Position numbers and translations under genes: made by a program
The notes under the pieces: generated by a model
The model's input: the letters and a program-made list of their open reading frames with translations, nothing else
What the model was told of the DNA's origin: nothing
Databases searched by the model: none
Shown here: piece by piece, positions 3,067 to 52,975 of the stretch
Layout: the number at the start of each line of letters is the position of its first letter
Numbering within the stretch: the first letter of the stretch is position 1
Origin: Watersipora subatra
Lineage: Eukaryota; Bryozoa; Gymnolaemata; Cheilostomatida; Watersiporidae
Reading direction: 5' to 3'
Length of the DNA stretch: 64,000 bases
NCBI RefSeq assembly: GCF_963576615.1
Contig: NC_088710.1
Location: 2,460,001 to 2,524,000, forward strand

Positions 3067-3110
3067 TATATATATATATATATAGGAGAATTTATGAATT
3101 TATATATATA
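3067..3110. repeat. AT dinucleotide microsatellite
   Basis: Runs of TA/AT including a self-complementary TCCTATATA...TATAGGA block. It lies just upstream of the hammerhead palindrome, which is followed on its other side (about 3381-3390) by another short TA run. Confidence 0.8.
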
Positions 3111-3232
3111 TTAACTAAAAGCAAGTGCAAAAGCATATAAAAAGAGAACTCTACACTAAAAACCTAAAAGATTATTAGTGGAGTATGAAATATTTGAAAA
3201 ATTATTGCGAAAAAAGTAAACTTTTAGTATTT

Positions 3233-3272
3233 GCGTTACAAATTTGTTTCGTGCGGAGCACTCATCAGACGC
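3233..3272 (-). ncRNA. Hammerhead ribozyme, type I, minimal stem III (left arm)
   Basis: Read on the minus strand from 3272 to 3233: stem I strand GCGT, core CTGATGA, stem II GTGC-TCC-GCAC, core GAAA, a very short stem III (CA-AATT-TG), then TA followed by ACGC, which pairs perfectly with GCGT to close stem I. All conserved core positions (CUGAUGA, GAAA, UH at the cleavage site) are present. Self-cleavage is predicted after the TA. The two-base-pair stem III matches the small hammerheads described in Penelope-like elements, which usually work best as dimers. Activity is inferred, not shown. Confidence 0.8.
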
Positions 3273-3300
3273 GATTGTACTAAAATCTTTTAGTACAATC

Positions 3301-3340
3301 GCGTCTGATGAGTGCTCCGCACGAAACAAATTTGTAATGC
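3301..3340 (+). ncRNA. Hammerhead ribozyme, type I, minimal stem III (right arm)
   Basis: Same motif on the plus strand: GCGT at 3301-3304, CTGATGA at 3305-3311, stem II hairpin 3312-3322, GAAA at 3323-3326, short stem III 3327-3334, TA at 3335-3336 and ATGC at 3337-3340. The one difference from the other arm (ACGC to ATGC) turns a stem I G-C pair into a G-U wobble, so the fold is kept. A transcript crossing the palindrome on either strand would carry one functional-looking motif. Confidence 0.8.
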
Positions 3341-3383
3341 AAATACTAAAAGTTTACTTTTTTCGCAATAATTTTTCAAATAT

Positions 3384-4455
3384 ATATATATGAACCTGTC
3401 TATAAGATATGGGTCTCAGAAGTCAAAAGTCAGTCTGGAAACTTGGGAAAGCCAAAATGTTTTGTAATGTTTTAAAATTTCATAACATTCTGATCAACGG
3501 TTCTCAAGCTGTGAGCATTTTCTTCTGGCAGTGATGCAAAGTTGAGTTTTTTGTCAAGATGTCAAGATTTAATAACAGCTTTTTAACATATTAAATTCAT
3601 TATTATCTTTGTTTAGGACTTTAGTAATATTGATCCTTGGTAAAATTAGGAAAAAGTGTAATAATATTGGAAACTCATGTCTCTGGTTAATATGCTCTAT
3701 ATAAAAGAAATGCGTTTGTCATGTCATACATGAAAAATGCGTAAAAGTTGCTGCAAGGCGAACAAGTTTAATATCAAATGTATATTTTTGCATGTTTTTT
3801 CATTAAATGATAACACCAATCCATATAACAGAGTTTCTTTATTAGCCTCATCAAGTTTAAAAAAAGGATAATTTAATCTTGTCATATATATGTATAACGT
3901 GATACATATACCAGGGGTGTCGCCTCATACATATGCATGATGTCGCAATTGATGTGACAACCCTAGTGTCATGACATATATTGATTTTATCCATTTATGA
4001 ATCTGAATTATGAGATTGTGTTTGTTTGTCATAGTTGGTGATGAGATATCTTGAGCAGTCTAATATAGTATGACTGATAAACAAATGCTTAGTGAATTCT
4101 GTCTCTTCATAAATACAATGAAACTAACACTATCATAGACAGCTTTTATAGTCAGTTTTCACGTTACCTACACCATCAGTTTCGCTTATGAGCTAACATG
4201 GGCAAGACTAATGTTGAAAGAAATAGAAGGCAAATTATAAAATTGCTGTTTATACACCTCAAGCTATAAATTAGTATCTGTGTAATATCCAACCTGGACC
4301 ATAGCAAAGTCTCCATATTCAAATTTATTAGTATTATATTTGAGACCATCAAAAAGTTGTTTCCAGATATAGAGGCAGTAAAGGTTTTTTCGGATGGAGT
4401 GGTTGGCAGTTCAAAGATCACTACCTCTTTTCAAAATAAGCTCGCTTGAAAGATG
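3384..4455. other. No recognisable feature
   Basis: AT-rich filler between the hammerhead palindrome and the transposase remnant. The minus-strand open frame at 4176-4421 has no recognisable motif. Confidence 0.5.
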
Positions 4456-16000: not shown

Positions 16001-19000
16001 CACCCGACTAATCTCTAGGCGATTAGCCCCAGATACCGCTAATTTTTCAGGAGGTTGCCGTAATTCAAATTACTACTACAGGAGACAGACTTAAAGGTTG
16101 ACTTGCAACAAAATTTACATTACAGTTATTTGGTATCAAAAGATTCACCATGTCTTACTCTGTTGTGGTGTAGGTGCCAAATATGTGGAAATGTGATTAC
16201 AAGCTCTTGAAAGCTCAAAAACGAACAGAAAATCGCAGCCACACAAGACTGCCGTAGTTTGGATTCGTTTTCCAAAACGACTAAAATGTGACGTAGTTGT
16301 GCGAGATGGTTTCTGTTTACACTTTCTTGCAACCTTATTTGTCGAAATATTTTCACAAATACACTTCACGTTTGCAATAAAAACCATGTCTATTGTTCTT
16401 ACGCGTCTATTTCATCGGCATCGTAATGCTGCAACTTCGAGCACTGATATCTCAAAACCTACCATAAAAATATGTTTAATTTTTTAATCTTAGCTTGAAC
16501 GATTACATATCATCCTCTGATGAACATGATGAGCCTTTTGGTCCGCTGTGATGGTCGAAAAATGCTGTAGAAATTGTTCACGCCATATGGCGGGAATTGT
16601 AAGTCACGTGATCAGATAATGTTAGTTTCAGTTCAACTTTGATCTATCGCAAATAACGGACACGCTTTCTCGTATTAAACTTGTTAATTTCAATTCGTCA
16701 TAATGTCTAATGCGCCACATCGTGTTTGTGCAGCTGCCAAGCTGAGAAGCACCTTTTTTCTTGGCCAATAGCAGAGAAAAGACCAGACCTTCACCGGGCA
16801 TGGAGCAACTGGGTGAAGCTGGATGTGACAAACTTTATTTATTCGCCTGCTTGCTCTTACCTTTGTTTTCGCCATTTCAAAGATTACATGTTTTCTAACC
16901 GGTTTGCATACTCCACATGTCACCAAAGCACGTGAGTAATTTATTTTATGAGCTACTTGTATTAGTAATAGTAACTCGGGTTATTTTCTAGAATTCTCCT
17001 AATACTACTGTATTAATCTATATTTAATATTACAATATTAATGTCATTTAATTGTAATATGTTATTATTAGTATTTTATCTTTTTAATTACATATACTAT
17101 TCTTATTATAATAACAAAACTAATTCATACTGCATATCTATCTGTAAAACGTAATATATTAATCTATAATTGATAAAATAATGTTATAAGTTTCACGATT
17201 AATTTTGCCAAATTTCTTAACCCCACTCACTTATAGATATGTTATATAAAACAGTTATTGTCATTTTCTTGTATCATCGTTAATAGCATATTAATATTAT
17301 TAGATGATTATTATTAGTATTAGATGATGAAGAGTTTGTGCCACCCACTGAAGACTGGGAAGAGTTTGAGCGCTATGTTGGCCAGCGTGAAACGCTCTCC
17401 AATTACATGTAAGATAGAGCTGAACTTAACCAAACTTGACAAAATATAAAGAATATCCATAGAGTTATTACTCAAATTTTTATGTTTACAATATCATGGA
17501 TTCTGATAAGGTTTTGTAAAATCCGCGTCATGATTGCATGGCTATATATTTATTCTTTTTCTGATCAAGCAAATATGATATAATAACAGGAAACGATGTT
17601 GTACAAATCTTATTGCAAGTCAACTATTGTGTTGTGATTTCAGACCCGAATCCTCCTTCAAAGAGGAGAAAATAATAGTAAGTGTGACAGCACTCCAGCG
17701 GCTATTTCACTGTCACGCTTGCGCCCTCTCCTGCTCATTCACGATGGTGCGAGAAGGCGGATGGGTAGAGTTCAAGGTTACATGTGCTTCCTGTCACCAA
17801 TCTTACACTTGGGAAACAACTTCCAGAGTGAACAGAGCTCACGTCATCAACCCCCTTCTGGCGGCTGCAGACCTCTTTTTTGGCGGATGCTTTACGCAGA
17901 ACCTCCAGTTTTTGTCGCTCATGAACATCGCGATACCAAGCCACAGCGTTTGCCTCTACCAACAAAGAGAATATTTACATGGTGTGAGTGTTAATATTTA
18001 CCCATAAACTTGGAAAATGTGAGTAAAAGCTTGGCACACTAATTGCATAACGACATTTAGAAACAATTTTTTTCTTGAAATGAAAATATGTCATCCTTCA
18101 AGCGAATTATATTGTAATTTAAAATTCTTCATCATAATATAGCACAAAAAGGGGGAAGAGGATTCTACATTCTTAGACTAATGATACAAATTAATCTTGT
18201 ATAATGAAGTTCTACCATATTTTACGGTGTATTGCTGAGCAGTACACCCTGCATAACGAAGGATTGATGGCAGCAATCGATTGGGAGCTTGATTTGGCAG
18301 GTGACGGTAGATGCGATAGTCCAGGGCATTGCGCACTATACGGGGCCTACACTATGATGGATCAGAGCTGCGGTTTAATAGTCAGCAGCCATCTTGTCAA
18401 GGTAAAACTTTGACAGTTTTTACTTCACAGCCTGACAAAAACCCAAATTTTTTAGTCATCAATACATAAACACGAAGTTGCTGATTTAGCTAAATAATTC
18501 ATTCAAATAATGTGAAAGTGATTGTTGGTCGTAACTTTCTTTACTTTGCAGTCAATGGGGACCACCAGCTCTAACGCCATGGAGCTGGAAGGTTTCAAGC
18601 GATGCCAGTCCGATCTAATTTCCCACGGCCTGATAGAGAGGTCCATTACAACGGATGTTGTTACAAAGGTTGTGTGCATACCGCAAGCTTGTGTTTTGGC
18701 TTATGCCGCAAATTCGTCGCGGTGAGCGACAGCCTCTACCTGCCTGCTTGGAGTCTAAGATTCAGGCTCTTTTCCCACCAACGGATGATGAAGAGTTTGC
18801 AGACTTGCAAACAAGATTTGCGGCATAAGCCAAAACACAAGATTGCGATATGCACACAACCTTTTCCGAGCATTTGGTGATGGCTCTCCAAATGGGAATA
18901 GATTATCTACCAAAACAATTATTGAAAAACAATAATTGCTGATCATCAAAATAATCTCGATCTTTATATAATAAAATCATAAAACTGGTACACTCTCTAC

Positions 19001-44200: not shown

Positions 44201-47200
44201 AACTATAGTTTGTACAACTATCACTGTACACTAGCTACTAGTGTACTGTTACAGTCGCTAGTGTACTATTACAGTCGCTAGTGTACTATTATGGCCTTGA
44301 TGGTATATGAACTAGTTTTAGGCTAAAAGTTGTGCTTAACACGCATGCGGCTAAAATTCTATCGTTACATGTACACTATTTGTTTGAAATGCGATGCGTA
44401 AAAGCTTTGCTCTGCTAAAAAGAATTGCTTTGACGCTAATATCGACTAGTTCAGAAGACATTGTGGAAGGTATTGGACAACTAGAAGATGTTCGTTTTAT
44501 CGAAAGTAACAATTAGAACACAGCTATCCGAGCAAACATTGCAAACATTTTTGTTTCAAGACTTTTAATTTTTGTTTCTGCATGTATTATAAGTATGGTT
44601 AGTTTATGTTACTTGTTCATGAATATATATTGGTAGCATTTGACGGATTATTATTGTATAACTTATAAATTTGCAGATTTATAGCATATAATTTGATGGC
44701 ATCATTGCGCTAATCTGATCTTATAATTGATAGACGCTCACAACTCCTCTTCTATTGCGCATAAAAAGCTAGTTTTGGCTGTAAAATGTAGCAAACATAT
44801 TAATGAGTGCCATGAGCTTTTATGCAACATTGTTAAATATAGATATAAAATAAAAATATGTCTTCAAATTTAGAATGAAATAGAAATTGAAAGCTCCAAC
44901 AAATTGCAAAGCAGGGCGTAGGCTACAATATCATCGCAGGTTAATTGCAAGCAATAGATATGAGCTGGTAGAGATATTTCTCGGTTTCTCAATACATATT
45001 AAAAGATCTTTGACAAGTCGGAGGTGTGTTAGCAAATTTATTGTATCCAAAAAAGTTGATGTCGCTCAACCGGAACAACCAGGCAAAATATAGGTGACAT
45101 TCGCTTCGCCGGTGAAAGGGCTAAATTTATCTTCCCAAAATTCTGATGAGCCATTTGAACACCACCTCTATTTGAACACCACCTCTATTTGAACACCACC
45201 TCTATTTGAACACCACCTCTATTTGAACACCACCTCTATTTGAACACCACCTCTATTTGATCGCCACTATAGGGCAAAGGGTGAAAAATAAAGCGCCATG
45301 GCTTTCAATTAAAGTTTTACAGTATCTATCATTTTATCTACTTTTTATAACTATTGTAAGGTAAGCCTTTTTTACTTGATAGATACAGCAAGTATTCAAG
45401 TGTGACATGGTACAGGTTCTGGGAGATTTTGAATGTAATGAGGCCATGGCAACAGGGCAGTCTAGGATGAACAAAGCATATCAGAGAACAACAGGTTTCC
45501 TGAGTGATGTGCTAGCCATCAGTAAAGGTAGAGTACCTAGAAACAATATACAACTGTCAATACAAACTTCTATATAAGGCTTTTGGAGGAGGATTGTATT
45601 CATTGTCAGGCAGTCTCCTCATAGTGTAGTACAGTGCACCCTTAGAATACGATGTGTTCATCCATTTCAGGGTTGGCGTCATATGATGAAAAATCCGTAG
45701 GTAGGGTATAGAAACCATTGTAATTATACAATGCAAACATCCCCTGGTAAAATTCATCAAAATTTTATGAAAATGTTGCACAGATTGAAAATTAGTAATA
45801 AAATATTGTTAACTTTAGTAACTATAATTACCTACAGTAACTGTATTCTATTTAGTGGTTATGATCTGCTATAAAATGCAATATTATAATGTGTGTACCA
45901 AATGCAATACATACGGTAAGGAGTTCTTACCTTCAAGACCTACGTACGTACATATAACATAAACTTTGAATTCACTTCAGCTTACCTAAGGCACACAATT
46001 AAAGCTAAGTTTTAGTATGTATTTTAACTATTTTACTGAATTTCAATTTTTATCACTAAAATTCTTATCACTTATCAGTTTCTGTTTTCGCTTTTCCTAT
46101 AACTTTTAGCATGTCCGGTTAAAACCTTTTTCAACCTAAGTCAGCAAAAAAGGCCGAGCGATGCAGTTCTCGAAAGCCGCCTCTCGCTCCCTTGATAGTG
46201 TAATGGCCATCGGAAAGAAAAACAAAATTTTATTTGCTATCAGTACGTACATACCTTTGGAGTAGGGTGACTTGAGCTGGTACATATAGCGAGTCGAATA
46301 AAGAAGAGGCAAGAGCGTATCAATGCTAATTATGTTACTGTAAACTTGAAAATAAATTAAATACATAATGAAATGAAATTTTTTTAGCAGACTAAAAGAA
46401 GTTGTTTATTCCTGTCTAAGGGATCGCAACTCCAATGTTTCTACTAGTTTTCAAAGAAAGAAAAAGTACCACTTTTGGGTCCTAAAATGAGTGCTAAAAA
46501 AAACAAGCTAACTTGGTGCAATGTAGAATATAGCCTATTTGATCTCTTGTTGAGGATGATGCTTGCTGGTGCACCGTAAATGCTGGTGCAATGAAGACAA
46601 TTGCTAGCTAACTAAGGCTTATAAAAAAGATCCAGAAAAGGTTTATAGTTTGTCTTGTATGAAATGTGCACGAGAATTAATGTAATCATACATACAGAAG
46701 TTTGTACTTATTTATACCCTAGAGGGCAGGGCTTTAGCAAGTTCTAGAAGGTAATGTGGATGCGTCAACTATCTTGAGTAGTTAGTTATATGAGTTACAT
46801 ACATACAATGATTTGTATTTACGGAATAAAAAACAAGCCAGTCTGCAAAAATTCGATTAAACATCAAATGAAATATATAAAACATGATTAAACATGAAAT
46901 AAAATAGAACATAAAATGAAATGAATAAAACATGAAAAACATGACACACAAAGATAAATAATGATATACGTTATGCATGCATTGTACAGCATTGTTTTTA
47001 TGTCCAGATCAGTAAATTTAACACTTGAAATGAAAAATTATTTTTAAAAAACTTACTCTAACAACTTTCATTTCTAGCTTTTTTGTTAGGTTCTATTCAG
47101 ATTATCATGTGTGCTTTATCTACTCTATTCAGATTATCATCTGTGCTTTATCTACTCTATTCAGATTATCATCTGTGCTTTATCTACTCCATTCAGATTA

Positions 47201-50200
47201 TCATTTGTGCTTTATCTACTCTATTTAGATTATCATCTGTGCTTTATCTACTCTATTCAGATTATCATCTGTGCTTTATCTACTCTATTCAGATTATCAT
47301 GTGTGCTTTATCTACTCTATTTAGATTATCATCTGTGCTTTATCTACTCTATTTAGATTATCATCTGTGCTTTATCTACTCTATTTAGATTATCATCTGT
47401 GCTTTATCTACTCTATTTAGATTATCATCTGTGCTTTATCTACTCTATTCAGATTATCATCTGTGCTTTATCTACTCTATTCAGATTATTATCTGTGCTT
47501 TATCTACTCTATTCAGATTATCATCTGTGCTTTATCTACTCTATTCAGATTATCATCTGTGCTTTATCTACTCTATTTAGATTATCATCTGTGCTTTATC
47601 TACTCTATTCAGATTATCATCTGTGCTTTATCTACTCTATTTAGATTATCATCTGTGCTTTATCTACTCTATTTAGATTATCATCTGTGCTTTATCTACT
47701 CTATTTAGATTATCATCTGTGCTTTATCTACTCTATTTAGATTATCATCTGTGCTTTATCTACTCTATTTAGATTATCATCTGTGCTTTATCTACTCTAT
47801 TCAGATTATCATCTGTGCTTTATCTACTCTATTTAGATTATCATCTGTGCTTTATCTACTCTATTCAGATTATCATCTGTGCTTTATCTACTCTATTTAG
47901 ATTATCATCTGTGCTTTATCTACTCTATTTAGATTATCATCTGTGCTTTATCTACTCTATTTAGATTATCATCTGTGCTTTATCTACTCTATTTAGATTA
48001 TCATCTGTGCTTTATCTACTCTATTTAGATTATCATCTGTGCTTTATCTACTCTATTCAGATTATCATCTGTGCTTTATCTACTCTATTTAGATTATCAT
48101 CTGTGCTTTATCTACTCTATTCAGATTATCATCTGTGCTTTATCTACTCTATTTAGATTATCATCTGTGCTTTTTCTACTCTATTTAGATTATCATCTGT
48201 GCTTTATCTACTCTATTTAGATTATCATCTGTGTTTTATCTACTCTATTCAGATTATCATCTGTGCTTTATCTACTCTATTCAGATTATCATCTGTGCTT
48301 TATCTACTCTATTCAGATTATCATCTGTGCTTTATCTACTCTATTTAGATTATCATCTGTGCTTTATCTACTCCATTCAGATTATCATCTGTGCTTTATC
48401 TACTCTATTCAGATTATCATCTGTGCTTTATCTACTCTATTCAGATTATCATCTGTGCTTTATCTACTCTATTTAGATTATCATCTGTGCTTTATCTACT
48501 CTATTCAGATTATCATCTGTGCTTTATCTACTCTATTCAGATTATCATCTGTGCTTTATCTACTCTATTTAGATTATCATCTGTGCTTTATCTACTCTAT
48601 TTAGATTATCATCTGTGCTTTATCTACTCCATTCAGATTATCATTTGTGCTTTATCTACTCTATTTAGATTATCATCTGTGCTTTATCTACTCTATTCAG
48701 ATTATCATCTGTGCTTTATCTACTCTATTCAGATTATCATGTGTGCTTTATCTACTCTATTTAGATTATCATCTGTGCTTTATCTACTCTATTTAGATTA
48801 TCATCTGTGCTTTATCTACTCTATTTAGATTATCATCTGTGCTTTATCTACTCTATTTAGATTATCATCTGTGCTTTATCTACTCTATTCAGATTATCAT
48901 CTGTGCTTTATCTACTCTATTCAGATTATCATCTGTGCTTTATCTACTCTATTCAGATTATCATCTGTGCTTTATCTACTCTATTCAGATTATCATCTGT
49001 GCTTTATCTACTCTATTTAGATTATCATCTGTGCTTTATCTACTCTATTCAGATTATCATCTGTGCTTTATCTACTCTATTTAGATTATCATCTGTGCTT
49101 TATCTACTCTATTTAGATTATCATCTGTGCTTTATCTACTCTATTTAGATTATCATCTGTGCTTTATCTACTCTATTTAGATTATCATCTGTGCTTTATC
49201 TACTCTATTTAGATTATCATCTGTGCTTTATCTACTCTATTCAGATTATCATCTGTGCTTTATCTACTCTATTTAGATTATCATCTGTGCTTTATCTACT
49301 CTATTCAGATTATCATCTGTGCTTTATCTACTCTATTTAGATTATCATCTGTGCTTTATCTACTCTATTTAGATTATCATCTGTGCTTTATCTACTCTAT
49401 TTAGATTATCATCTGTGCTTTATCTACTCTATTTAGATTATCATCTGTGCTTTATCTACTCTATTTAGATTATCATCTGTGCTTTATCTACTCTATTCAG
49501 ATTATCATCTGTGCTTTATCTACTCTATTTAGATTATCATCTGTGCTTTATCTACTCTATTCAGATTATCATCTGTGCTTTATCTACTCTATTTAGATTA
49601 TCATCTGTGCTTTTTCTACTCTATTTAGATTATCATCTGTGCTTTATCTACTCTATTTAGATTATCATCTGTGTTTTATCTACTCTATTCAGATTATCAT
49701 CTGTGCTTTATCTACTCTATTCAGATTATCATCTGTGCTTTATCTACTCTATTCAGATTATCATCTGTGCTTTATCTACTCTATTTAGATTATCATCTGT
49801 GCTTTATCTACTCCATTCAGATTATCATCTGTGCTTTATCTACTCTATTCAGATTATCATCTGTGCTTTATCTACTCTATTCAGATTATCATCTGTGCTT
49901 TATCTACTCTATTTAGATTATCATCTGTGCTTTATCTACTCTATTCAGATTATCATCTGTGCTTTATCTACTCTATTCAGATTATCATCTGTGCTTTATC
50001 TACTCTATTTAGATTATCATCTGTGCTTTATCTACTCTATTTAGATTATCATCTGTGCTTTATCTACTCCATTCAGATTATCATCTGTGCTTTATCTACT
50101 CTATTCAGATTATCATCTGTGCTTTATCTACTCTATTCAGATTATCATCTGTGCTTTATCTACTCTATTTAGATTATCATCTGTGCTTTATCTACTCCAT

Positions 50201-52975
50201 TTAGATTATCATCTGTGCTTTATCTACTCTATTTAGATTATCATCTGTGCTTTATCTACTCTATTTAGATTATCATCTGTGCTTTATCTACTCTATTTAG
50301 ATTATCATCTGTGCTTTATCTACTCTATTCAGATTATCATCTGTGCTTTATCTACTCTATTCAGATTATCATCTGTGCTTTATCTACTCTATTTAGATTA
50401 TCATCTGTGCTTTATCTACTCTATTCAGATTATCATCTGTGCTTTATCCACTCTATTCAGATTATCATCTGTGCTTTATCTACTCTATTCAGATTATCAT
50501 CTGTGCTTTATCTACTCTATTTAGATCATCATCTGTGCTTTATCTACTCTATTTAGAATATCATCTGTGCATTATCTACTCTATTCAGATTATCATCTGT
50601 GCTTTATCTACTCTATTTAGATCATCATCTGTGCTTTATCTACTCTATTTAGAATATCATCTGTGCATTATCTACTCTATTCAGATTATCATCTGTGCTT
50701 TATCTACTCTATTCAGATTATCATCTGTGCTTTATCTACTCTATTTAGATTATCATCTGTGCTTTATCTACTCTATTTAGATTATCATCTGTGCTTTATC
50801 TACTCTATTCAGATTATCATCTGTGCTTTATCTACTCTATTCAGATTATCATCTGTGCTTTATCTACTCTATTCAGATTATCATCTGTGCTTTATCTACT
50901 CTATTTAGATTATCATCTGTGCTTTATCTACTCTATTTAGATTATCATCTGTGCTTTATCTACTCTATTCAGATTATCATCTGTGCTTTATCCACTCTAT
51001 TCAGATTATCATCTGTGCTTTATCTACTCTATTCAGATTATCATCTGTGCTTTATCTACTCTATTTAGATCATCATCTGTGCTTTATCTACTCTATTTAG
51101 AATATCATCTGTGCATTATCTACTCTATTCAGATTATCATCTGTGCTTTATCTACTCTATTCAGATTATCATCTGTGCTTTATCTACTCTATTTAGATTA
51201 TCATCTGTGCTTTATCTACTCTATTTAGATTATCATCTGTGCTTTATCTACTCTATTCAGATTATCATCTGTGCTTTATCTACTCTATTTAGATTATCAT
51301 CTGTGCTTTATCTACTCTATTTAGATTATCATCTGTGCTTTATCTACTCTATTTAGATTATCATCTGTGCTTTATCTACTCTATTCAGATTATCATCTGT
51401 GCTTTATCTACTCTATTTAGATTATCATCTGTGCTTTATCTACTCTATTCAGATTATCATCTGTGCTTTATCCACTCTATTCAGATTATCATCTGTGCTT
51501 TATCTACTCTATTCAGATTATCATCTGTGCTTTATCTACTCTATTTAGATCATCATCTGTGCTTTATCTACTCTATTTAGAATATCATCTGTGCATTATC
51601 TACTCTATTCAGATTATCATCTGTGCTTTATCTACTCTATTCAGATTATCATCTGTGCTTTATCTACTCTATTTAGATTATCATCTGTGCTTTATCTACT
51701 CTATTTAGATTATCAAGTCTGACCTTGTTTCAGACCATTGTTGTTTGACCTTGTATCAACCATCAAGGTAGATTTGTTGAAGTATTTAATGTTTTAGTGC
51801 ACAGTATTTATTAGCCGAATGGCTGGCGTTGCCCGGGTATTAATAAACAGCTTTTAGACAGCGGCTAGTAATGTAGTTGCCTGGCACATTGCCAATGACT
51901 AATTTGAGTAAGCTGCCATCCGTATTGCTAAATTTACTCATAAAAGTGGTGAGAGCAAGCTTTAGTGACGTCACGCAGAGTGCTATGCGTATTTTAACTG
52001 ACATAACGACTCACTTAATGGATTCATTGCATCTGGTGTAGCTTAAATGGTTAAGTTATTGCCTGGTGAACGGGAGGTTTCAACATAAAATCTAGTACAA
52101 GGAAGATCTTTTATTCCTCGATTTTAATAGTTATAGATCTATATATATATACACTATATATAAGTTGTTTTTATCTAGCTATAAGGTTTTTAGTGTTTAT
52201 AAGTGGTTTTTTCTCTGCAGAGTCAGCAGAGGAAATGCCCCCTCTCTTTGCTTCACTAGAGGGAGGCCTTCTCAAGGAGCCCCGTACTAGATGTGCAGAG
52301 GAATCAGCAGCGCATAGCCGCATCTCAGGTTTCATTCTTGAGGGTTTTCACTCCTACTCCAGGCAGTCAGAGCTGTTCTGGGATGAGGCAACTCACATGT
52401 CCGTGCTGAGCAGTACAATTTCTCACCTTCCTACTGATAAAGTGCGGGTGTTATTCGGATCTGTTCATCCTCTGGCTGCGCTCAAACTGGTGAAGGCTGG
52501 CATTGATCTCTTTGATACATCCTATACGTATCAAGTGACGGAGAGGGGTGGAGCACTGTGTTTTCCCTATGATGATCGGCAAGCTTTTCCCAAAACAGAC
52601 AAAATGTTTGAGTTGGACTTGACTGACAGCAAGTATGCCGAGCAGTTTGTGCCGATAATGGAGAACTGTACATGCCGTACTTGTGCTGGAGACCCTGGTA
52701 ATCCTGAAGATCCCGGTTTCACGAAAGCCTACATACACCATCTGCTCAACACGAAGGAGATGAATGCGAGTATACTGCTCTCGAGGCACAATATTCATCA
52801 CTATCTTTCCTTCTTTGAACAAGTACGGCAGCGGCTTGACAGCGATGACCCGACAGCACTAGATCACCTCGAAAGCCTCGTCTCCGACTCAAAGGGTGCC
52901 GAGATTGATTACACTAGTCAGCCAACTGATGAGTCGTCCCAACCTGTTAGGACAAAACGCAAACTCTCTCCCTAA
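41022..52975 (+). CDS. QTRT2: Queuine tRNA-ribosyltransferase accessory subunit 2
   Basis: Non-catalytic partner of QTRT1; together they exchange guanine-34 for queuine in tRNAs with a GUN anticodon, at the cytosolic face of the mitochondrial outer membrane. Exons 41022-41215, 43719-43920, 45416-45527 and 52221-52975 join in phase to 420 residues; the human protein is 415. Landmarks: METPGCMLFTRCGAVPHLSL near the N-terminus, GFILEGFHS, the barrel segment VRVLFGSVHPLAALKLVKAG, FDTSYTYQVTERGGALCF, and the zinc site C319-x-C321-x2-C324 with H359 (TKAYIHHLLNTKEMNASILL between them). Start ATG 41022 (MKYVPR) matches the usual N-terminus; an upstream in-frame ATG at 40965 would add 19 residues. Intron 3 (6.7 kb) carries the giant 32-bp array. 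Confidence 0.96.
42384..43075. mobile_element. MITE, CTCGG-end family, diverged copy 4 (QTRT2 intron)
   Basis: Starts CAGTAAAACCTCAG and ends near CCGAGGTATGACTATAG. Internal order matches copies 1-3 (CCACCATAAACC, TTGTATGTTTTG, TTTGGTCGAAAACTGAA), with more substitutions, so it is an older insertion. Confidence 0.6.
43719..43920 (+). CDS. QTRT2: QTRT2 exon 2
   Basis: Reads TLSDWSQTVKECKGGLGEFT onward to SPQEFVK; the GxGxF-M...SLHD-like region of the family appears as GLGEFTCMQDYLIFFTSHDV. Acceptor GTTGTTGCAG, donor GTCAGT. Confidence 0.94.
43945..44120. repeat. 19-bp tandem repeat, about nine copies (QTRT2 intron)
   Basis: The unit AGTAGATATGACATGAGTT recurs with small changes, starting about 25 bp after the exon 2 donor. 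Confidence 0.9.
44320..45322. mobile_element. CTGTAAAACC-end element, copy 3 (QTRT2 intron)
   Basis: The right end CAATTAAAGTTTTACAG and the interior match 28723-30171 and the right part of 15759-21637. The left end is not recognisable, so it is probably truncated. Confidence 0.6.
45154..45260. repeat. 17-bp tandem repeat, about six copies
   Basis: The unit TTTGAACACCACCTCTA is an expansion of a sub-terminal motif (single or double in the related elements) inside element copy 3. Confidence 0.95.
45416..45527 (+). CDS. QTRT2: QTRT2 exon 3
   Basis: Reads VLGDFECNEAMATGQSRMNK then AYQRTTGFLSDVLAISK plus one base. Acceptor GGTACAG, donor GTAGAG. It matches the human DGEV-KEATSIKRVRKSVDRSLLFLD region in position. 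Confidence 0.93.
45632..46080. mobile_element. CAGTGCACCCT-family MITE, partial copy
   Basis: Begins CAGTGCACCCTTAGAATACG. Homology to 61263-62011 runs through the GTAACTATAATTACC block to about 46080, then stops; the other end was not found. Confidence 0.65.
47092..51715. repeat. 4.6-kb array of a 32-bp unit, ~144 copies (QTRT2 intron 3)
   Basis: The unit reads CTATTYAGATTATCATCTGT then GCTTTATCTACT, where Y (C or T) is the main variable position. Rare variants (CTCCATTCAG, TCATTTGTGC, CATGTGTGC, GTGTTTTATC, CTTTTTCTAC) recur 1,440 bp apart (for example 47181 and 48621, 48231 and 49671), showing a tandem duplication of a 45-unit block. Near the right end a TCCACTC / GATCATC / GAATATC / GCATTATC variant group recurs at 480 bp (15 units) and other multiples of 32. 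Open frames across it are artefacts of repetition. Confidence 0.98.
51812..52165 (+). mobile_element. tRNA-headed SINE-like/RTE-like copy 3 (QTRT2 intron)
   Basis: Starts TTAGCCGAATGGCTGGCGTT GCCCGGG, shares CCTGGCACATTGCCAATGAC and GCTATGCGTATTTTAACT with 30411-30824, and contains the tRNA-like TAGCTTAAATGG at 52039-52050. It ends in a TA run about 60 bp before QTRT2 exon 4. Confidence 0.6.
52221..52975 (+). CDS. QTRT2: QTRT2 exon 4 (terminal, zinc site)
   Basis: Residues 170-420, with the C-x-C-x2-C zinc ligands (CTCRTC) and their histidine, then a short basic end TKRKLSP and TAA. Acceptor TTTTTTCTCTGCAG. Confidence 0.97.

Follow-up and report, generated by a model that had tools for sequence, protein, structure and literature searches.

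Two head-to-head hammerhead ribozymes in Watersipora subatra as a probable twin insertion of a Penelope-like element

The palindrome analysed here is most likely a twin insertion of an endonuclease-type Penelope-like element of which only the 5' end is represented: the 5' pseudo-LTR region occurs twice, joined head-to-head in an AT-rich tract, and each arm carries a type I hammerhead. The window, i.e. the whole stretch of 64,000 nucleotides that was analysed, corresponds to positions 2460001-2524000 of contig NC_088710.1 (C3) of Watersipora subatra. The parts of the insertion are as follows, where element coordinates are counted from the first C of CTGATGA (position 0).

3104..3383, no strand: whole insertion, the 5' pseudo-LTR region of the element in two head-to-head copies within an AT-rich tract (blastn against a natural element copy)
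3099..3103, no strand: left target tract, AT-rich, running into the element's own terminal ATAT
3104..3286, minus strand: long arm, ending at the distal 3' site A (+164, GTTAATATAT) (blastn)
3104..3189, minus strand: element tail (+79..+164), in one arm only (left)
3222..3285, minus strand: type I hammerhead ribozyme, predicted cleavage between 3237 and 3236 (core, fold, covariance model)
3287..3287, no strand: single C between the arms, fitting the template of neither arm there
3288..3383, plus strand: short arm, ending at the proximal 3' site B (+78, CAAATAT) (blastn)
3288..3351, plus strand: type I hammerhead ribozyme, predicted cleavage between 3336 and 3337, with a G-U pair in stem I (core, covariance model)
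3384..3391, no strand: right target tract, (AT)n

Blastn against the natural element copy aligns 3104-3286 on the minus strand with element positions -18..+164 (100%) and 3288-3383 on the plus strand with -17..+78 (99%). The insertion is larger than the palindrome, as the tail at 3104-3189 adds to the left side only. The inverted repeat itself spans 3190-3285 and 3288-3383, with 95 of the 96 positions complementary, a spacer of 2 nt and the centre CTAAAAT-C-TTTTAG. Its sole mismatch, at 3235/3338, changes ACGC into ATGC and turns a G-C pair of stem I into G-U. An earlier note on this DNA had described a near-perfect palindrome with two inverted hammerheads, whose only difference keeps the pairing of stem I as a wobble, and both parts of this description are borne out, the full core being present in each arm. 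When the natural element unit was compared to the window, blastn returned this insertion and one 60-nt match of 77% identity at 46901-46959, and nothing else.

Both arms contain CTGATGA, a stem II of 4 bp (GTGC-TCC-GCAC), GAAA, a UA at the predicted cleavage point and a minimal stem III, all of which had been listed before. Stem III has 2 bp, is closed by A15.1-U16.1 and carries the self-complementary loop AAUU. Stem I reads GCGU/ACGC in the minus arm and GCGU/AUGC in the plus arm, and it is closed by an outer helix of 8 bp, TTTTAGTA/TACTAAAA, that was absent from the earlier note. Each arm thus shows the type I arrangement, i.e. the core CUGANGA...GAAA...UH, three helices and an opening at stem I.

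In structure prediction, the minimum-energy structure of the 59-nt minus arm is the hammerhead with the stems described above. The minimum-energy fold of the 59-nt plus arm, which has the G-U pair, is not the hammerhead, but its 45-nt cut does fold to one. None of five arm folds was more stable than its own shuffles (z 0.2 to 1.3). In longer element context, the hammerhead is the best fold for -18..+47 and -25..+55; for -50..+78, an alternative fold beats it by 2.6 kcal/mol in the common variant, and in the variant of locus L316 the hammerhead is best. The RNA of the whole palindrome is predicted to form a single hairpin of -153.6 kcal/mol, in keeping with the earlier suggestion of one long hairpin, so that the window locus is probably inert.

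The 23-nt core, with up to 3 mismatches, occurs twice in the window and in none of 100 shuffles. A loose type I descriptor gave 18 matches in 300 simulated windows and is by itself weak evidence. A strict descriptor had found 70 distinct type I hammerheads in viral contigs, and a covariance model was built from 43 of these; its covariation is partly there by construction, since the descriptor had demanded the stems, and at least four rows of its alignment are visibly misaligned. In the window (E up to 10) this independent model reports three matches: the two arms rank first with 24.7 and 23.9 bits, and the third has 12.1 bits. The E-values of the arms, 2.2e-4 and 3.8e-4, are rough, and the arms are not independent of each other. 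The earlier note had named background covariance scores as grounds for giving up the claim, and an Rfam search of the window, which returned no hammerhead, would on its own formally amount to this. The same search was, however, also blank for two well-paired hammerheads of the viral contig L086, and for this reason we do not count it as a negative result.

Scans of the viral contigs with the window's own core and with a near form gave no match, and a phage collection contained no match. A head-to-head pattern was found in at least 120 stretches of viral contigs; among the matches listed only L086 showed hammerheads at the threshold applied, both on the same strand. This IMG/VR contig of 4.4 kb carries two type I hammerheads and two Twister-P5 ribozymes (1318-1377 and 1810-1867), all on the minus strand. 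Four matches in genome contigs (L001-L004) were set aside, being chance-like by eye and without an Rfam match.

The search for other copies that the earlier note had suggested was rewarding: the genome (783.7 Mb in 239 contigs) contains 87 exact copies of the core, 48 forward and 39 reverse, and the reversed control gave 0. Three direct core pairs lie 2455-2460 bp apart, in L292 (2460), L259 (2459) and L316 (2455). L292 is a full copy in which the ribozyme is found in two direct repeats flanking an RT-like ORF of 709 aa, i.e. direct pseudo-LTRs surround one ORF, as in Penelope-like elements with an endonuclease. A 286-aa piece of this ORF matches RVT_1 with E 0.0042, under the Pfam cut-off, and RT motifs are seen by eye. 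Pfam reports neither RT nor GIY-YIG for the full 709-aa ORF, and NCBIfam and PDB gave nothing relevant; the ORF ends in what we take, by eye, to be a GIY-YIG-like stretch with a cysteine motif. It has at least 63 scored matches. An adjacent reverse transcriptase, which the earlier note had proposed to search for, has a counterpart in relatives (L292, as an RT-like ORF), but blastn with the natural element unit shows none beside the window copy.

The same genome harbours a second Penelope family (family 2), whose protein is 58% identical. Its core, CUGAAGA-GUGC-ACCA-GCAC-GAAA, lies in the repeats that flank the ORF on either side (L320-L323), and it was not reported by the 43-sequence covariance model. 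Comparison of the two families shows that stem I has changed from GCGU/ACGC to GUCAC/GUGAC, that the loops and H17 have changed and that stem II is identical; the pairing is retained under sequence change. With a third core type, CUGAGGA (L343 and others), N7 is T, G or A in three related cores of the genome, and the fixed core is constant. Since patterns or homology around the core were used to find these sequences, they lend support to the ribozyme identity, short of proof of function. Beside a diverged Penelope copy, L325 has at 320-369 the decayed remains of a different kind of hammerhead, with 27.4 bits and a broken core.

It is the combination of layout, tail, targets and hammerhead that identifies the element as Penelope-like, and domain evidence alone would not suffice. 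Inverted copies are head-to-head, have an optional tail and lie in AT-rich targets, and the arms match the hammerhead-bearing pseudo-LTR of longer copies. The earlier note was right in seeing a head-to-head pair of type I hammerheads of a kind known from Penelope-like elements. We also considered a retrozyme, i.e. short direct tandem repeats without an ORF, and rejected it: the window pair is inverted and the relatives bear ORFs.

The earlier note had treated the inverted layout as exceptional. It is instead a regular product of this element, and the layout has been in print since 2013 (PMC3846280). Close pairs on opposite strands are head-to-head in 13 of 13 cases in the exact-core set, in 17 of 17 in family 2 (first 100 of 210 places) and in 19 of 19 obtained with a downstream-of-core pattern (first 100 of 437 places); the exact-core and downstream-pattern sets overlap. 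Among the exact-core neighbours on opposite strands at up to 3 kb, 15 pairs are head-to-head and 1 is tail-to-tail, the latter joining two adjacent insertions in L265. Short twins occur in 31 of the 68 exact-core stretches (29 plus two duplicates), so not every copy is twinned.

The arms of short twins end at two recurrent sites, around +78 (B) or +164 (A) in family 1 and around +107 or +171 in family 2. These sites are AU-rich stretches followed, where the flank was fetched, by AT-rich DNA. One distal and one proximal end were found in 56 of the 57 resolved short twins, which lie in or beside AT-rich tracts. In the exact-core set the rule of one A and one B end holds for 28 of 29 (L275 and L276 were dropped as duplicates of L274, and L263 as unresolved), the exception being L261 with two B ends. 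It holds for all 12 pairs of the downstream-pattern set, which are the 14 new close pairs minus L356 (a near-copy of L348) and the unresolved L346, and in which the A end is visible only to about +161, where the stretches stop. In family 2, where the prediction was fixed after fetching but before any sequence was inspected, it holds for 16 of 16; of the 17 pairs fetched L339 was dropped, its centre and spans being equal to those of L338, and two ends deviate slightly (+97 instead of +107 in L332 and +169 instead of +171 in L337). Long insertions can also have A and B ends (the second insertion of L265, and L281), while in L262, L266 and L283, all of them long and inverted, one end belongs to neither class; L254 extends past the limit of its stretch. 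Since the target is (AT)n, target-site duplications are not visible. The unique flanks of L261, the sole B/B exception among the resolved short pairs, resemble each other's reverse complements.

We propose that a twin arises when both strands of an (AT)n target are cut. A single element RNA has two AU-rich stretches, A and B, and each 3' end of the target would anneal to one of them and prime reverse transcription; both cDNA copies would be extended to the 5' end of the RNA, and the two cDNA 3' ends would be joined, either with filler or by short overlaps that are self-complementary. In this picture the hammerheads are passengers of the insertion, and each arm alone could fold. The central step, in which one RNA is copied from both target strands and the cDNAs are joined, is the reading that we favour, although we hold our confidence in it to be evenly balanced. 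One RNA offers each site once, hence one A and one B end per twin, and two copies of it should both stop at the RNA start, giving arms with equal inner ends and a shared haplotype. As a picture of Penelope-like integration in general we put it forward somewhat more tentatively: one capped RNA, uncleaved by its hammerhead, may be copied twice from different internal sites at a cut (AT)n, both copies running to the cap and their ends being fused, so that the centre would mark the transcription start, in this family often at the 5' edge of hammerhead stem I.

The two arms of a pair usually have coupled inner ends. The distance between these is at most 3 nt in 21 of 28 short pairs of family 1 (shuffled mean 7.0, and 0 of 200000 shuffles reaching this count) and in 13 of 16 family 2 pairs, mostly at -16 (shuffled mean 9.9, 375 of 100000), the counts being based on blastn ends entered by hand. 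Family 1 has two common stops, -17/-18 and -34 to -37, and no pair of the 28-pair list combines one with the other. At each of the usual inner ends (-18 and -35, and -16 in family 2) the template has CA at -1/+1, a dinucleotide typical of many transcription starts. A stricter exact-match walk shifts some inner ends, for example L290 to -30 and -36 and L335 to -25. In family 2, 16 arms have their end at -16 exactly (L339 dropped), and the base before the inner-end A is G in 8 of them, A in 6 and T in 2, the templated C being absent because the definition of the inner end excludes it; the G is a small hint of cap copying. In L355 and L347 the centre is expanded to long runs of A and T, as if copying had stuttered at the U-run of the supposed RNA start. 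The idea that inner ends generally coincide with the 5' borders of extended stem I was rejected, as it is true for one variant only, apart from -17, at which the TTTTAGTA/TACTAAAA helix has its 5' edge.

Templates cut by the hammerhead would leave inner ends at +32. None was found among the fetched arms, the nearest being +28 and +23 (L350), and the smallest gap among the 19 downstream-pattern pairs is 30, where +32/+32 would give about 8. The exact-core sets are unfit for this comparison because the core itself was the search key.

The two arms also share their sequence variants. Of 34 usable pairs (40 loci given), 33 have the same haplotype at three subfamily sites in their two arms, the exception being L264, as compared to a mean of 19.9 of 34 after shuffling, with 0 of 100000 shuffles reaching the observed value; one haplotype is common here because most loci were selected for an exact core on one arm or both. 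The 7 pairs with G at N7 include no mixed one. A C-to-A variant, -5A, is present in L259, L280, L281 and L289 in one arm only each time, which fits a mutation hotspot or a second template. The notion that pairs with equal inner ends share variants and unequal pairs do not was dropped, since non-CpG variants are 2 concordant/8 discordant versus 4/19 (Fisher p = 1). Against the copying of one RNA speak this one-arm -5A, the irregularity of the long insertions and the many copies that are not twins.

Another reading, which keeps the same element identity and which we consider rather unlikely, is that a single cDNA folds back: reverse transcription would start from A on one target strand and run to the RNA 5' end, and the cDNA would then snap back, copy itself outward and reach the (AT)n at B. 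This explains almost as much as one RNA copied twice, because coupled inner ends, shared haplotypes and one A plus one B end are expected from it as well. Self-templated filler or loops in the centres of L267, L264 and L283, the last hairpin-like with a loop, point the same way, and self-priming, on an antisense template, has been proposed for rotifer Penelopes (PMC3846280). It is strained, however, by arms that do not overlap and by centres without a spacer. The A arm stopped early in L255 (+133), L296 (+67) and L308 (+111), the B arm being at its usual end; in L255 and L308 the arms are non-overlapping, so the B arm was not copied from the surviving A arm unless there was a later central deletion. 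Zero-spacer centres are found in L256, L313 and L287, and in L327, L330 and L342; in L256, L313, L287, L330 and L342 no loop is needed, and such centres are consistent with two annealed cDNA ends. Finally, in 6 of 7 long insertions the inner ends are separated by 109 to 1242 nt (the other differs by 7), which speaks against a fold-back, though central deletions could explain it.

It is improbable, in our opinion, that two independent RNAs, one per target strand, were each copied once. The arms that differ in -5A (see above) would agree with this, as would the 7 of 28 short pairs whose inner ends are more than 3 nt apart. The haplotypes do not, unless one source locus gave both RNAs, and neither does the lack of mixed pairs with G at N7; moreover, two RNAs do not explain why a twin has one end at A and the other at B.

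The window copy by itself resembles a palindromic unit, being a near-perfect palindrome with AT flanks, which might suggest a palindrome mobilised as a whole, either as a DNA element (MITE or foldback) or as a ribozyme circle. We regard this as highly improbable. The same centre does recur at different loci (L256/L313, in family 2 L330/L342 and L333/L337, and the near-copies L348/L356), but the centres mostly differ, and so most palindromes are separate events. Longer copies with an RT-like ORF exist, and the tail is on one arm only in all resolved short twins but one. Flanks match on both sides only in L274-L276 among the 31 family 1 loci compared for duplicated flanks. These three loci (C5) represent one twin insertion in triplicate, and in L275 the centre is shorter, as if a filler repeat had been lost. 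An assembly or library artefact (foldback read) can produce perfect inverted repeats, but it is the least probable explanation of all, since the same two outer ends recur at dozens of loci on large contigs, where the flanks differ and so do most of the centres.

It is useful to compare these insertions to the known systems. The general layout is already known for Penelope elements, and palindromes are frequent for the present one. Endonuclease-containing Penelope-like elements of Adineta vaga were described in 2013 with head-to-head inverted pseudo-LTRs and palindromic junctions (PMC3846280). These elements have in common with ours that the inverted pseudo-LTRs are mostly head-to-head, that the junctions are palindromic, that the tail is optional on one repeat and that the targets are AT-rich. 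In contrast to what is described there, many insertions in the present genome are twins that consist of the 5' end only and have no ORF, a tailed and an untailed end are combined in 56 of 57 short twins, the arms share their haplotype and the centres lie at CA dinucleotides. In that paper the word 'hammerhead' occurs 0 times, and the model given is self-priming on antisense RNA.

Poseidon PAc of Anolis has a hammerhead in its pseudo-LTR, as is the case here, and its main substrate is unprocessed RNA; its protein cuts and extends both target strands in vitro, with internal RT starts that bound the tail (PMC11167929). The steps after priming are stated there to await validation, and the PAc ribozyme is reported to depend on its protein. 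The PAc start site is not homologous to the cut DNA, whereas both end sites found here are AU-rich and match the (AT)n target. Animal retrozymes (PMC7229834) likewise have a type I hammerhead with a weak stem III and a tetraloop, but they are direct tandem repeats without an ORF and with RNAs of about 170-400 nt, as opposed to the inverted arrangement and the ORF-bearing relatives seen here. For the one-of-each-end rule, the shared haplotype and twin hammerhead palindromes, we found no report in a literature search that covered mostly papers outside subscription.

For the mode of Penelope-like insertion, self-priming on antisense RNA has been proposed from rotifer copies (PMC3846280), and priming on both strands has been seen in vitro (PMC11167929). 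Short twins are compact records of single events in this respect, with a legible junction and with outer ends that fall at two recurrent sites, almost always one at each, and they offer simple tests for other genomes, i.e. end classes, haplotype identity and junction bases. Inverted hammerhead pairs require no new ribozyme biology.

A few other features of the window deserve mention. A tandem array of a 32-bp unit occupies 47092-51715 (144 copies, 97% match), and a strong strand skew is seen at 48-52 kb. Among the ten ORFs searched against Pfam, an open frame of 301 aa at 52070-52972 matches queuine tRNA-ribosyltransferase, best to accessory subunit 2 (QTRT2-like), and a weak Mutator-like transposase match (E 3e-5, below the Pfam cut-off) lies at 17579-18004.
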